From the NCBI GenBank assembly GCA_902766415.1, contig CACXDR010000304.1:1-6221 (forward strand): DNA of 6,221 bases, in the 5' to 3' direction. Of this stretch, positions 2,198 to 6,087 are shown piece by piece. The stretch is from an uncultured Lachnospiraceae bacterium (GTDB lineage: Bacteria > Bacillota_A > Clostridia > Lachnospirales > Lachnospiraceae). The notes beneath the pieces were generated by a model. The model was not told where the DNA came from and did not search any database. It was given only the letters and a program-made list of their open reading frames with translations. The first letter of the stretch is position 1. Every line of letters starts with the position of its first letter. Both the position numbers and the translations under genes were made by a program.

Positions 2198-3241
2198 TTA
2201 TTTCCGGAGAGTCCGGAGCTTCTTTGATGCAGCCTGCAGCGCCGCGTAGAGCTTCGGCAGCCGGTACTCAAAGCGGCAGAAGAAGCGGTCGCGGAGCGGG
2301 AGCTCCCGGTAAAACCTCCTGCAGCGCGGGGAGTAGATGGCTTTGAAATCGCGGATGTTCATGCGGGTCAGGAACCAGAGCCGGCGGGACGCGGACACCG
2401 CTTCGCGGTGGAAGCGGCCGCCGGTCTCTTTGTCGAAGGACTCGTACATCGCCCGCATCCGGCGCGCGTACTCGTCCTGCTTCTTCACGTAGTCTCCGGT
2501 CTTCATGCTGCTGGTCCAGGAGCCGGCTCCGTTAAAACGGTAGACGCTCATGGGGCGGTCCATATAGTACGCGAAGCCCCGCGCGGCTGCCATAAGCTCA
2601 AGGGGGCGGTCTCCGACCGGGCAGTCCACGTAGTAATCCGGGAGGGAGCGGACCAGCTCCGCGCGGAGCATCATGGAGCCGAAGGGGAAGCCGCCGGCCT
2701 TGTCGATCAGCTCCTCCGGCGTGAGCACGCGGTCGCCGCGGTAGGGCCGGAGAAGCGCCTTGTTGACCAGCTCGCCGTTGTCGTTCCGCACCTCCGCGGG
2801 GTGGACGCAGAGCTGGCATTCGGGATGCGCCTCCATGTACGCGGCCTGCCGCGCGAGCTTCGTGTCGTCGCACCAGTAGTCGTCGCAGTCCATGAGCGTG
2901 ATGTATTTTCCCTTCGCGCGCGGGAAGTTGAACGCGCCTGAGATGTTCGTGATGCCTTTGGAATACTGGTTTTCCGTCTGCAGGATGGGCTTTATGATGT
3001 CCGGGTACCGCGCCTGGTACGCGCGGATGATGTCCTGCGAGCCGTCCGTGGACGCGTCGTCATGGATCAGGATCTCAAAGCGGAAGCTGCATTTCTGCGA
3101 GAGGAAATGGTCCAGCGCCTCCTTAAGGTACGGGGCGTGGTTATAGCAGACCGCGCAGATGCTGACGAGCGGGGCATCGTCCGCAGGGATGGAAGAGTTA
3201 GCGGATGCGTTTGTATAGCCGGGAAGCCGTGTATACTTCAT
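2198..3241 (-). CDS. Family 2 glycosyltransferase (GT-A fold), surface polysaccharide synthesis
   Basis: 347 aa from the chosen start. N-terminal GT2 catalytic domain (about 25-240): VSICAVCYNH (26-35), HDDASTDGS (60-68) for nucleotide binding, DCDD (118-121) as the DxD metal site, and VGDRPLE (209-215), whose Asp211 is a candidate catalytic base. YRFNGAGSWTSS (234-245) resembles the acceptor-side end of the domain. The C-terminal about 100 residues are basic and Arg-rich, with no clear membrane span, which suggests peripheral contact with the cytoplasmic membrane. Expected role: transfer of one sugar from a nucleotide sugar to a lipid-linked glycan; donor and acceptor cannot be read from sequence. 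A longer frame opens at an ATG at 3274 (358 aa) but has no Shine-Dalgarno; ATG3241 has GGAAGGAGT 7 nt upstream, so it was preferred. It is the last gene of the minus-strand polysaccharide unit and lies 218 nt after the flippase. Confidence 0.92.
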   Translation of the reverse strand: MKYTRLPGYTNASANSSIPADDAPLVSICAVCYNHAPYLKEALDHFLSQKCSFRFEILIHDDASTDGSQDIIRAYQARYPDIIKPILQTENQYSKGITNISGAFNFPRAKGKYITLMDCDDYWCDDTKLARQAAYMEAHPECQLCVHPAEVRNDNGELVNKALLRPYRGDRVLTPEELIDKAGGFPFGSMMLRAELVRSLPDYYVDCPVGDRPLELMAAARGFAYYMDRPMSVYRFNGAGSWTSSMKTGDYVKKQDEYARRMRAMYESFDKETGGRFHREAVSASRRLWFLTRMNIRDFKAIYSPRCRRFYRELPLRDRFFCRFEYRLPKLYAALQAASKKLRTLRK

Positions 3242-3248
3242 GGAATGG

Positions 3249-3257
3249 ACTCCTTCC
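3249..3257 (-). promoter_or_regulatory. Ribosome binding site that fixes the GT2 start at 3241
   Basis: Reading the minus strand, GGAAGGAGT ends 7 nt before the ATG at 3241. The in-frame ATG at 3274 lies upstream of this motif and is preceded by a GC-rich structured stretch without one. The site therefore shortens the protein by 11 residues compared with the longest frame. Confidence 0.85.
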
Positions 3258-3277
3258 GGGATCGGAATAATCATGGT

Positions 3278-3423
3278 GCCGGGCTGCAGGGGTATGCCCC
3301 GGTGTCCGCTCGGGCGCAGCGGGCTATTCGTCCGTCCATGCCGGACCAGGGAAGGTCCGTCCCGGAACGGACGCCTGTCCTGCGCACGGTGGACACCCTG
3401 GGGATAGCCCCTGGCAGCCCGGT
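3278..3423. repeat. 146-bp imperfect inverted repeat filling the flippase-GT2 gap
   Basis: This holds most of the 218-nt gap between the flippase and GT2 genes. It folds as one long stem: 3279-3287 with 3414-3422; 3288-3292 with 3408-3412; 3293-3295 with 3404-3406; 3297-3300 with 3400-3403; GGTGTCC 3301-3307 with 3391-3397; GCGCAG 3314-3319 with 3380-3385; 3320-3323 with 3374-3377; CGTCCGT 3329-3335 with 3367-3373; 3342-3347 with 3354-3359, closed by hexaloop AGGGAA (3348-3353). About 50 base pairs, broken only by small bulges and internal loops. No U-tract follows on the minus strand and the stem is far longer than a terminator. Candidates are a structured leader RNA, a processing site, or an ERIC/MITE-like palindromic element. 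No target-site duplication abuts it. Confidence 0.8.
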
Positions 3424-3459: not shown

Positions 3460-4917
3460 TCAGACCCTCCCGCGCTTCCGGATCACGTCCGCGACGAAGC
3501 GGATCGTGCCGCGGTTCAGGACAGCCGAGAACGCGCAGTAGAGCACGACGCCCGCGGGGATCTGGATGAGCAGCGTAAGAAGGGGCGAAAGCCCGAGGCG
3601 CCGGATGCCGAAGACGGCGGCTCCCATAAGGACCGCGGAGACCGCGGACGGCAGCATGTCGAGATACTGCTCGCCGATCCCGTAGCGGATCAGCTTTTTC
3701 ACAGGATACGCGTTGATAAAGGTGCAGAGGAATTCATCCGCCGCCTTCAGGACCAGCATGACAAGGATGCCGTGCCGGATGCTGAGAAGGAGGATGATGA
3801 TCCCGAGCGCCTTTTTTATGATCTCAAGCTTCAGGAAGAGGTCGCTCCGCCCGAGGGCCGTGATCATCTGCAGGTTCGTCACGTGGATGGGCCAGAACGC
3901 GTAGCAGACGGAGAGCAGGCAGAGATACGGGGCGCAGAAGAGCCACTTGTCGGTCAGGAGCACCCGGATGAGGGGCACGGCAGTGCCAATGAGGCCCGCC
4001 ATCATGGGGAAGACGGCAAAGGCGGAGAGGCGGATGCTTTTCCGCATCATCTCCTTCAGCGTCATAGGATCCCCCTGGTTCTGTGCGTACGCGGGCAGGA
4101 GCACGGACTGGATCGCGGCTGAAAGGTTCGAGGTGATGAGCTTCGGGAACTGGTCCGCGCGGCTGTAGCCGCCTAAGTCCGCCTGGGAATAGCGCTTCCC
4201 GATGACGAGCCCGTAGACGTTCATCCAGACGGTGTCGATGAGCCCCGACGCGAGGATCTTTGAGCCGAAACGGAAAAGCTCTTTTACGCGCTCCCGCTCA
4301 AAGCCGCCCCGCGGCCGCCAGTCGACGGTCACGAACAGCCCGCACATCAGCGCGAAATAATAGATGATCTGCTGCGCCGCCATAGCCCACACGCCATAAC
4401 CGCGCGCCGCCATGGCCACCGCGGCCGTGCCGGACAGGAGGACCGCCGCCATGGTCGCCTTGAAAAGCTGGCGGAAGTTCAGGCTCCTCGAGACGTAGGC
4501 GGTCTGGATGGAGATCACCGCCCCGGGAAAGAGGACGATGCCCATGACCCGGAGGAGGCCGGCGAGCACAGGGGTGTCATACCAGGATGCCACCGCGGGC
4601 GCGATGAGCCAGAGGAGGAGGTAAACGGGAACGGAGATCAGGAGGCAGATCCGCAGCACCGATGAGTAGTCCGAGTCCCGGACCTCGGGGCGCTGGATCA
4701 GCGCGGTCGCGAAGCCGGACTGGACGAAGGTGTTCGCGATCGTGATGAAGATCATGATCAGGCCGATGGTCCCGTATTCCGTCGGGGACATGAGCCGCGC
4801 GAGGAGCAGCGCCACGACAAACTGCACGCCCTGAGCCCCGAGAAGCTCGGAGAGCTTCCAGAGGAGGCCGTGCGCGACTTTTGTGCCGAGTCCGCTGTTT
4901 TCCTGCATTCCTGTCAT
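3460..4917 (-). CDS. Wzx-type oligosaccharide flippase (MOP superfamily, TuaB/WzxC-like)
   Basis: 485 aa polytopic membrane protein with about 12-14 hydrophobic segments, the usual size for the family. It should move undecaprenyl-linked oligosaccharide from the cytoplasmic to the outer face of the membrane before polymerisation or attachment. Family marks: LLLARLMSPTEYGTIGL (37-53) on the first helix pair, QSGFATALIQRPE (66-78), AYVSRSLNFRQL (140-151), RGYGVWAMAAQQ (172-183), a long amphipathic cytoplasmic stretch with FRFGSKILASGL (216-225 region), and GYSRADQFPKL (250-260). This pattern matches the TuaB/WzxC branch more than the O-antigen Wzx branch. The ATG at 4917 has only a moderate AGGTAAGG upstream; a second ATG (codon 4) lies directly behind an AGGA and is too close to it. 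The first ATG is embedded in a 17-bp tandem repeat array, which is unusual. Substrate cannot be inferred. Confidence 0.92.
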   Translation of the reverse strand: MTGMQENSGLGTKVAHGLLWKLSELLGAQGVQFVVALLLARLMSPTEYGTIGLIMIFITIANTFVQSGFATALIQRPEVRDSDYSSVLRICLLISVPVYLLLWLIAPAVASWYDTPVLAGLLRVMGIVLFPGAVISIQTAYVSRSLNFRQLFKATMAAVLLSGTAAVAMAARGYGVWAMAAQQIIYYFALMCGLFVTVDWRPRGGFERERVKELFRFGSKILASGLIDTVWMNVYGLVIGKRYSQADLGGYSRADQFPKLITSNLSAAIQSVLLPAYAQNQGDPMTLKEMMRKSIRLSAFAVFPMMAGLIGTAVPLIRVLLTDKWLFCAPYLCLLSVCYAFWPIHVTNLQMITALGRSDLFLKLEIIKKALGIIILLLSIRHGILVMLVLKAADEFLCTFINAYPVKKLIRYGIGEQYLDMLPSAVSAVLMGAAVFGIRRLGLSPLLTLLIQIPAGVVLYCAFSAVLNRGTIRFVADVIRKRGRV

Positions 4918-5019
4918 CTTGCCTTACCTGTTATTTTGTGTTTCCTGTCATGCAGCCTTTCCTGTCATCCTTCGCTTTCTGTCATGCAGACGTTCCTGTT
5001 ATCCTATGCTTTCTGTCAT
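4901..5019 (-). repeat. Seven tandem 17-bp units ending in the flippase start codon
   Basis: Read on the minus strand, unit starts are at 5019, 5002, 4985, 4968, 4951, 4934 and 4917, exactly 17 nt apart. Consensus is ATRACAGRAA plus 7 variable bases; units: ATGACAGAAAGCATAGG, ATAACAGGAACGTCTGC, ATGACAGAAAGCGAAGG, ATGACAGGAAAGGCTGC, ATGACAGGAAACACAAA, ATAACAGGTAAGGCAAG, ATGACAGGAATGCAGGA. Units 1 and 3, and units 2 and 4, are most alike, so a 34-bp dimer was probably duplicated. Unit 7 supplies the first codons of the flippase. The purine-rich core of each unit sits about 7 nt before the ATG/ATA of the next, like a Shine-Dalgarno. Because ATGA/ATAA recurs every 17 nt, each ATG is followed by a stop as its seventh codon. 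It is not CRISPR: there are no spacers of usable length. Confidence 0.93.
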
Positions 5020-5096
5020 GACCCGGCACCCGGGTGCAGGGCAGCTGCCTTTTTCTTTCCTTCTGCTATTTTCCCCTTTCAGGAGGGACCGCCGCG
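5020..5096. other. Gap after the rhamnosyltransferase-like gene with two short perfect palindromes
   Basis: Between the stop of the upstream GT2 (5097) and the 17-bp array lie GCACCCGGGTGC (5026-5037) and GGCAGCTGCC (5040-5049), followed on the plus strand by CTTTTTCTTTCC. On the minus strand, the direction of the flanking genes, no T-run follows, so this is not a convincing terminator for them. On the plus strand a weak hairpin plus T-run could stop antisense transcription. No gene is seen in this stretch. Confidence 0.4.
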
Positions 5097-6071
5097 TCAC
5101 ATGAAGAGGCATTCCCCGACGGTCCTGTGGAGCCGGTTGAAGGTGAAGCCGTAACGCAGGATGACCGCGGCCTTCCGGACGCGCGGCAGCTTCCGTAAGG
5201 AGACGAAGACGCGGAGGGTCCTTCTGTCCCGCTCTGAAAGCGCGTCCCCGTACTGGCGCCCGAATTCCGCCGCCTGGCGGAAGAGCGCGGTGTAGACGGA
5301 GGAGGAGTGGCGGTCCATGTCCGCCTTCGTCTTCCCGTCCTTCCGGAAGAGGCCCAGCCGGTCCAGGACCTCGCGGACGCGGCTGCCCTTGGCGGCGCCG
5401 AGGACATTGTCCGCGTGCTGACGGTAGTCGTAGAGGGATTCGTCAAGGAAGACGATGTGCCCGAAGGCCGCCGCCGCGAGCGCGGCCCAGTGGTCGTGCA
5501 TGACCGCGTGCTCCGGCACCGGGCGGGACTTTAAGAGCCGGACCAGCGCGCTGTTCATCATCATGGCGCCGCCGGTCACGTTGTTCTGGACGAGGAGCTG
5601 GTTCAGCTGGTTCCTCGAGGGCGTCATCTGCTGGAAGCGCACGTAGGAGGGGGCGAGCTCCGCCCCGGCACCGTCCGTGACGCGCATGTCGCAGTGGACG
5701 ATGAGCGGTGTGTGCATGCCGTACCGCTTTTCGGCCTTTTTCATGGCAGCGAGCGTTTTTTCCATTTTGTCGGGATGCCAGACGTCGTCCTGGTCGGCGA
5801 AGCAGACGTAGCTGTCTTCATCCGCCCGGTCGTGGAGGACCGTCATGAAATGCTTCGCCGCGCTGCCGGAGGGCTCTTTCCTCCGGAGAAAGGTCACGCG
5901 GTCCGGATAGAGCTCCGCGTAGTCCGCCGCGATCGCGGGCGTGCGGTCCGCGGAGGCGTCGTCCGAGATGAGGAGGGATACGTCCGGCTCTGTCTGGCGG
6001 AGGATCGAGAGGATCTGCGCGTGGATGTATTTTTCGCCGTTGCGGCTGCAGAGGATGACCTGGATGCTCAT
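5097..6071 (-). CDS. Family 2 glycosyltransferase, rhamnosyltransferase-like
   Basis: 324 aa from the chosen start. GT-A domain: MSIQVILCSRNGEKY (1-15), LLISDDASADRT (33-44) for nucleotide binding, CFADQDDVWHPDKM (90-103) containing the DxD metal motif, NNVTGGAMMMN (163-173), MHDHWAALAAAAFG (191-204) with the probable catalytic Asp193, and DYRQHADNVLG (215-225). The last two motifs are typical of the RgpF/RfbF-type rhamnosyltransferase branch, which moves rhamnose or a similar deoxyhexose from a nucleotide sugar to a lipid-linked chain in the cytoplasm; the actual donor is inferred only. The C-terminal about 100 residues are basic and helical-looking. An ATG four codons earlier (6083) is possible, but family proteins begin close to the first beta strand and ATG6071 has GAGG 6 nt upstream. 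First gene of the minus-strand unit, behind its own promoter. Confidence 0.9.
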   Translation of the reverse strand: MSIQVILCSRNGEKYIHAQILSILRQTEPDVSLLISDDASADRTPAIAADYAELYPDRVTFLRRKEPSGSAAKHFMTVLHDRADEDSYVCFADQDDVWHPDKMEKTLAAMKKAEKRYGMHTPLIVHCDMRVTDGAGAELAPSYVRFQQMTPSRNQLNQLLVQNNVTGGAMMMNSALVRLLKSRPVPEHAVMHDHWAALAAAAFGHIVFLDESLYDYRQHADNVLGAAKGSRVREVLDRLGLFRKDGKTKADMDRHSSSVYTALFRQAAEFGRQYGDALSERDRRTLRVFVSLRKLPRVRKAAVILRYGFTFNRLHRTVGECLFM

Positions 6072-6077
6072 AAATAG

Positions 6078-6081
6078 CCTC
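6078..6081 (-). promoter_or_regulatory. Ribosome binding site favouring the GT2 start at 6071
   Basis: On the minus strand GAGG ends 6 nt before the ATG at 6071. The alternative ATG at 6083 overlaps this motif and has only GGAA directly in front of it, next to a stable hairpin. The preference is moderate, since the two starts differ by only four codons. Confidence 0.55.
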
Positions 6082-6087
6082 ATTTCC

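Follow-up and report, generated by a model that had tools for sequence, protein, structure and literature searches.

A tandem array of seven 17-nt units at the start of a flippase gene in an uncultured Lachnospiraceae bacterium

Described repeats at gene borders and the setting of the array

Short direct repeats in the gaps between genes are known from marine Beggiatoaceae, in which copies of TAACTGA are found mostly just before start codons (MacGregor 2015, PMC4679880). According to this paper the forward copies provide stop codons in all frames, some of them overlap the stop of the preceding gene, and a role in translation is suggested. Another tandem repeat, the AGAT tract of uspA2 in Moraxella catarrhalis, has a copy number that goes with expression and is described as acting at the transcript level (PMC7302503, PMC4679880). 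For gene pairs with overlapping stop and start codons, Huber (2023, PMC10666635) reports that the geometry of the ATGA overlap favors reinitiation, and that coupling by reinitiation was almost abolished at distances of about 20 nt in the pairs tested there. ACA motifs have been demonstrated to enhance initiation in enterics (Yang 2014, PMC3879156).

Here we describe an array of direct repeats that reaches the start codon of a flippase gene in an uncultured member of the Lachnospiraceae; the window, as the term is used below, is the whole stretch of 6,221 nt that was analyzed. Among the described cases that we found, the TAACTGA repeats ahead of start codons come closest to this array, both being short direct repeats in gene gaps that give stop codons. 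As far as the published description considered here goes, TAACTGA is one heptamer occurring in 169 sets in one genome and has little Shine-Dalgarno (SD) character, whereas the window holds one known array with a 17-nt pitch, unrelated spacers and weak SD. The uspA2 tract, too, is repeated in tandem and precedes a gene for a surface structure; by the accounts cited it is a tetranucleotide tract that varies among strains, while the units of the window have diverged and are known from one sequence. ATG-started frames in the window end at the next ATGA or ATAA, similar to the ATGA overlaps in the work of Huber, and a true overlap exists in three relatives; in contrast to the coupling described there, however, these frames comprise only six codons, two of the links lack an ATG, and 77 nt separate the upstream gene from unit 1. 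The ACA triplet of Yang 2014 is invariant in all seven units, its enhancing effect having been demonstrated in enterics. A literature search of titles and the beginnings of abstracts, with most subscription journals outside its coverage, yielded no description of such an array for this group.

The features of the window are compiled in Table 1. In the downstream glycosyltransferase the inner ATG at 3241 has a far better ribosome-binding site (RBS; -14.2 kcal/mol) than the first one at 3274 (-2.4 kcal/mol), so that 3241 is probably the start of this gene. Between this gene and the flippase lies an inverted repeat of 14 nt (3279-3292 / 3409-3422; 86%) with 116 nt between its arms. At its C-terminus (1938-2064) the alpha-amylase-type protein has a tail that is rich in K, E, A and G and carries overlapping tandem repeats with periods of 6, 11, 18 and 36. 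Two antisense open frames on the plus strand (4870-5154 and 4883-5104) cross the array, without evidence that either is a gene. No plasmid or phage origin is indicated, as searches for both were without match, and viral contigs were matched neither by the exact three-unit pattern nor by the flippase. The array had no match in Rfam at E values up to 1; the sole match, CRISPR-DR16 (E 0.53, under the gathering score), lies elsewhere in the window.

Table 1. Position of genes, start codons and repeat units in the window.
Feature	Position	Strand	Remark
Alpha-amylase-domain protein	60-2087	plus	
Family 2 glycosyltransferase downstream of flippase	2198..3274	minus	family match
Flippase, 485 aa	3460..4917	minus	Polysacc_synt_3 / Polysacc_synt (PF13440, PF01943)
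Inner in-frame flippase ATG (MQENS...)	4906..4908	minus	aligned to called start of P0001 (MQDSG...)
Unit 7 ATG	4915..4917	minus	first ATG of flippase ORF (MTGMQENS...)
Gap from glycosyltransferase stop to flippase ATG	4918..5096	minus	179 nt
Array of seven 17-nt units	4901..5019	minus	10-nt core ATRACAGRWA + 7-nt spacer
Unit 1	5019-5003	minus	
Unit 2	5002-4986	minus	
Unit 3	4985-4969	minus	
Unit 4	4968-4952	minus	
Unit 5	4951-4935	minus	
Unit 6	4934-4918	minus	
Unit 7	4917-4901	minus	
Two 34-nt dimers (units 1-2, 3-4)	4952..5019	minus	5/34 sites different
Family 2 glycosyltransferase upstream of flippase	5097..6083	minus	stop 77 nt before unit 1

Anatomy of the array and the flippase junction

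The original prediction of seven units recurring at exactly 17 nt, the last of which contains the flippase start, agrees with what we found on the minus strand. The units follow each other from 5019 to 4901 without any indel, and unit 7 opens with the flippase ORF's first ATG. Self-match of the array is 0.61 at a shift of 17 and 0.74 at a shift of 34, beyond all of 5000 dinucleotide shuffles, in which the highest value at shifts of 5-39 was 0.54, and TRF recovers the identical array. The units are not near-identical, as pairs of them agree at 9-15 of the 17 sites. Columns 1-10 form the core ATRACAGRWA with seven invariant positions and columns 11-17 are variable; the purine content of the array in the sense direction is 0.74. 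A 34-nt higher order is visible in the agreement between units 1 and 3 (15/17 sites) and between units 2 and 4 (14/17), which points to the duplication of a 34-nt dimer as the latest event.

The nearest genomes represent seven species of one genus (G001-G007). All seven carry the flippase with 63-77% identity. The source of the homologue P0011 (69% identity) is named Stomatobaculum sp., and we accordingly term the bacterium of the window Stomatobaculum-like. In three of the genomes (G005, G006 and G007) the glycosyltransferase and the flippase share a 4-nt ATGA stop/start overlap, and the two genes are spaced by 4 nt in G002, by 18 nt in G003 and by about 99 nt in G001, the latter if its TTG start is correct. 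The array is absent from the junction in all six of these genomes, in which the upstream glycosyltransferase is present on the contig; the contig of G004 ends 87 nt ahead of the flippase start, and no unit is found in that stretch. The array is known from one sequence only.

The nearest flippase protein (P0001, 93% identical) has a called start that matches the inner ATG at 4908 and not unit 7. This inner start reads ATGCAGGAA and the core reads ATGACAGGAA, the difference being one inserted A in the core. Judged from this one match, the start region of the flippase itself is the probable origin of the array, so that of the proposal of an amplified start module the origin is retained, while the units as working initiation sites are not (see below). 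Tandem duplication of the flippase start junction would have occurred repeatedly, with the 34-nt duplication as the final step. We tentatively read the outcome as a lineage-specific leader element, the sequence of which is itself read, with the flippase left to an independent, weak start.

Core, spacers and other arrays of the clade

Outside the two recent pairs of units, the p-distance is 0.13 in the core and 0.72 in the spacer, where 0.71 is expected for unrelated spacers of equal composition. In simulations with a uniform rate and similar total divergence, conservation of 10 columns to this degree was reached in 1 of 70,487 runs on a star tree, and core conservation of this kind in 8 of 64,755 runs on a tree that includes the dimer step. 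Permutation of columns gave p = 0.0024 for the contiguity of the conserved columns; the split into core and spacer had been noticed before testing, and the test corrects for the choice of the column range but not for that of the array. Twelve other arrays of the genus, picked and cut up identically without gaps, gave a lowest p of 0.03 with the remaining eleven at ≥0.19, most of them having too few changes to be informative. As uniform rates rarely reproduce the contrast, the core looks to be under constraint. Its invariant C and A are not accounted for by the stop codons. The spacers have diverged to randomness, which makes a slippage-prone tuner of flippase expression in the usual sense, as had been proposed, unlikely.

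The nearest genomes frequently carry arrays in their gene gaps, and the presence of an array alone therefore needs no function. We counted 17 in 30.8 kb of gaps in G001 (5.5 per 10 kb), 5 in 11.0 kb in G002 (4.5), 4 in 18.7 kb in G004 (2.1 per 10 kb) and 2 in 7.3 kb in G003 (2.7), compared with 0 in 22.5 kb in G005-G007 and 4 in 30.4 kb (1.3 per 10 kb) in other genomes of the family, the latter being stretches of 20 chosen genomes, one without a usable gap, that are mostly of lower G+C content than the genus. For the counts of gap arrays, SD background, core words and gene ends, the gene borders were set by a simple ORF caller based on a codon model and not by annotation. The 28 gap arrays of the genus touch a gene stop in 14 cases (7.8 expected) and a gene start in 2 (5.3 expected under random placement), counts near starts being rough since the caller takes the 5'-most starts. 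Units that include the stop of the preceding gene are found at L082 18944-18997 (TGACAGGAACGGAAAAGC...), L099 479-554 and L092 11494-11613, and also in a different array of 13-nt units in G001 (L039 2927-3002, identical to L001 5436-5511), which directly follows the orthologous flippase and has stop codons within several of its units. Other short-period gap arrays of the genus lie at L001 661-758, L067 4455-4507 and L064 621-736. No common unit was seen among the arrays of L001, L064, L067, L082 (18944-19019), L092 and L099, several of which begin at a gene stop. Gap arrays as generally purine-rich leaders were dismissed, since gaps with and without an array show no clear difference in sense purine content (mean 0.60, n=12, and 0.57, n=270, sd 0.08).

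The array of the window fits the description of the intergenic tandem repeats of its clade, i.e. a short period within a gene gap, and may be a repeat without function, produced in a repeat-rich lineage in which slippage multiplies stretches of gaps and one array reaches the flippase start by chance. The density of gap arrays in G001-G004, the array after the same flippase in G001 and the numbers of arrays at stops and starts all agree with such an origin. Neutral decay, however, would strike core and spacer equally, whereas the observed decay is unequal, and the spacers retain no residual similarity yet have not suffered a single indel. We regard a functionless repeat as rather unlikely, yet as the next most probable reading after the leader element.

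The core itself was sought in the related genomes. In G001 (1.18 Mb) the word ATRACAGRAA occurs 8 times in the sense direction in 464 same-strand gaps and 0 times antisense; for words of permuted letters the mean is 0.75, and a count of 8 is reached by 0.1% of 3000. Four of these occurrences include the upstream gene's stop codon, and no occurrence is situated at a start codon. Five of the eight fall in the 400 kb in which the excess was noticed first (reached by 0/3000 permutations), and three in the 779 kb analyzed afterwards, a number reached by 72/3000 permutations. The sub-words TRACAGR, ACAGGAA, ACAGRAA, TGACAGG and CAGGAA showed no clear excess in G001 (5-25% of permutations reach the observed counts). 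At gene ends of G001, TRA followed by CAGRA was found at 11 of 881 stops, where 2.1 are expected with independent columns, a post hoc count that is partly due to purine runs. Both excesses in G001 were tested after the core was known and are suggestive only.

Pairs of the core at a distance of 0-30 nt are present in 98 of 299 genomes of the family. Among the 141 matches listed for these genomes (counted by eye), 3 (G001, G105 and G294) have the 17-nt spacing, with 4.5 expected if all 31 spacings were equal. A three-unit pattern with ≤2 mismatches matched 22 of 392 genomes of the order, compared to 17 (by eye) for the backward control. The one clean array of ATAACAG with a 17-nt period among them is found at L056 2037-2133 (G535), antisense to both neighboring ORFs. 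Core pairs with one mismatch at 17 nt occur in 4/7 genomes of the genus and in 0/7 for the backward control; these imperfect pairs lie in gaps (L005, L006) or inside genes (L007, L008). At L005 1501-1543 (G004) two imperfect units (one mismatch), spaced by 17 nt, stand 18-43 nt before an ORF start at 1544. Permuted letters gave 0.15 imperfect pairs per 1.9 Mb, a sample in which the real motif has 0, and four pairs in the seven genomes (16.5 Mb) are somewhat more than the approximately 1.3 scaled from the permutations.

A conserved core with spacers that are free in sequence but fixed in length, repeated at seven sites, would also suit a row of sites for a protein that binds the mRNA leader or the DNA at a 17-nt pitch and controls the flippase, and the imperfect two-unit version before an ORF start in the gap of G004 would fit such sites as well. 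On the other hand, 17 bp is a non-integral number of helix turns, the scan of 4800-5200 gave no promoter-like site (and a single weak terminator-like site, on the plus strand), and core pairs at 17 nt are not in excess among the 299 genomes of the family. We consider binding sites of this kind unlikely. We know of no binder of the core. CsrA leader sites are likewise unlikely: the CsrA family was found in 0/7 related genomes of the genus in a search that matched 3/14 control genomes, and GGA occupies the core position in only 4/7 units.

Start codons, ribosome binding and the flippase leader

According to the original prediction every unit carries a start codon and an AGGAA that serves the next unit as RBS. 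We found ATG in units 1, 3, 4, 5 and 7 and ATA in units 2 and 6, and AGGAA in four of the seven units, with AGAAA in units 1 and 3 and AGGTA in unit 6; start codon and SD-like motif thus hold for most units but not for each. A stop codon, TGA or TAA, is present one base into the unit in all seven. Each ATG before unit 7 opens a frame of six codons (MTESIG, MTESEG, MTGKAA, MTGNTK) that closes at the TRA of the next unit, the stop of the mini-ORF falling exactly at the next ATGA or ATAA, which is a point in favor of the original prediction. The fit says little about design, since any unit containing ATGA produces it when the period is 3n+2. Frames opened by ATG have a stop overlapping another ATG only at units 3-4 and 4-5, and the chain of mini-ORFs is interrupted at units 2 and 6 and just ahead of the flippase. 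In the frame that closes at the ATGA of the flippase AUG, GUG and UUG are all absent, the nearest start-like codons being ATA at 4934 and CTG at 4955, and the last ATG-started mini-ORF stops 13 nt upstream of the flippase ATG. A termination-reinitiation chain through ATGA was discarded, as the stop/start overlaps are missing at both ATA units and ahead of the flippase.

Ribosome-binding strength was estimated as the duplex energy of the 16S tail with a 17-nt stretch whose end lies 4 nt upstream of the AUG. The five AUGs of the array gave -7.9, -4.7, -6.1, -8.6 and -4.6 kcal/mol (median -6.1). In the genes of G001 (first 400 kb), G002 and G004, internal ATGs have a median of -5.4 (n=740), 41% of them at or below the median of the array, and called ATG starts one of -9.9 (n=265); in anti-SD pairing the flippase AUG is equaled or surpassed by 89% of these called starts. 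The tail was located in five of six 16S ends; the copy of G002 differs downstream of CCTCCTTT, and for G001 no copy was found. When the tail is shortened, pairing of the units is equal or weaker, the background having been computed for the original tail. Since the energies are near those of internal ATGs, the sites of the array are SD-like no more than roughly at the level of a purine-rich background. Classification as an array of functional initiation modules is not supported, with ATG in 5/7 units and SD pairing near that of AUGs that are not starts. No unusual lack of structure is seen in the leader (z 0.92 over 231 nt, -0.18 over the array by itself), and its fold is unremarkable. Elsewhere, an 18-nt repeat at L077 9441-9499 has AAGGAG in successive units directly before an ATG and is a second candidate for a repeated SD region; alternatively, it may form an N-terminal extension of the ORF.

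These numbers bear on a ladder of initiation sites that would load ribosomes toward the flippase, or park them so that the mRNA is shielded as in STAB-SD leaders. The ATGA geometry that favors reinitiation (Huber 2023, PMC10666635), the ACA triplets that enhance initiation in enterics (Yang 2014, PMC3879156) and the observation that a strong SD without a start codon can stabilize mRNAs in Bacillus (PMC3997798) would be in line with a ladder, as would the SD-like purine runs of the units, among which units 4 and 5 with -6.1 and -8.6 kcal/mol exceed the median internal AUG. Yet SD strength is close to background overall, units 2 and 6 have ATA, structure is average, no canonical start exists in the frame ending at the flippase ATGA, and the last mini-ORF ends short of the flippase. 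A part of S1 in initiation is doubtful in Firmicutes. The claim that every unit is a working start as well as the RBS of the next unit is not supported, given pairing near background, two units without ATG and a final frame without start, and we consider a ladder improbable. A repeat-spacer leader in which the cores both stop and start (ATGA/ATAA and CAGRAA) and hand short translation events from unit to unit, thereby setting how often the flippase is started, is very improbable; in such a leader the SD-to-start distance and the reading frame would together fit the 17-nt pitch.

Our preferred reading of a sequence-read leader element would thus connect the junction of the relatives with that of the window as follows. 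The 4-nt ATGA overlap, present in half of the relatives considered, would couple the glycosyltransferase and the flippase, and the array would have replaced this coupling. As the array stands in the 179-nt gap, the flippase would be started on its own, from a weak RBS. A core that was kept while the spacers drifted to randomness suggests that it has a sequence-read role in the leader of the flippase and may be under selection, possibly through an effect on expression. Each core would moreover set a TRA stop in a different frame from the preceding unit, so that stray translation of the leader would end within a few codons.

If the core is indeed under selection, the array would be a compact natural example in which two genes passed from coupling by a stop/start overlap to an independent leader built of repeated junctions, and an effect of repeated stop/start modules on initiation could be tested cleanly with it. 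The many gap arrays in the nearest genomes are natural experiments in the change of gene borders.
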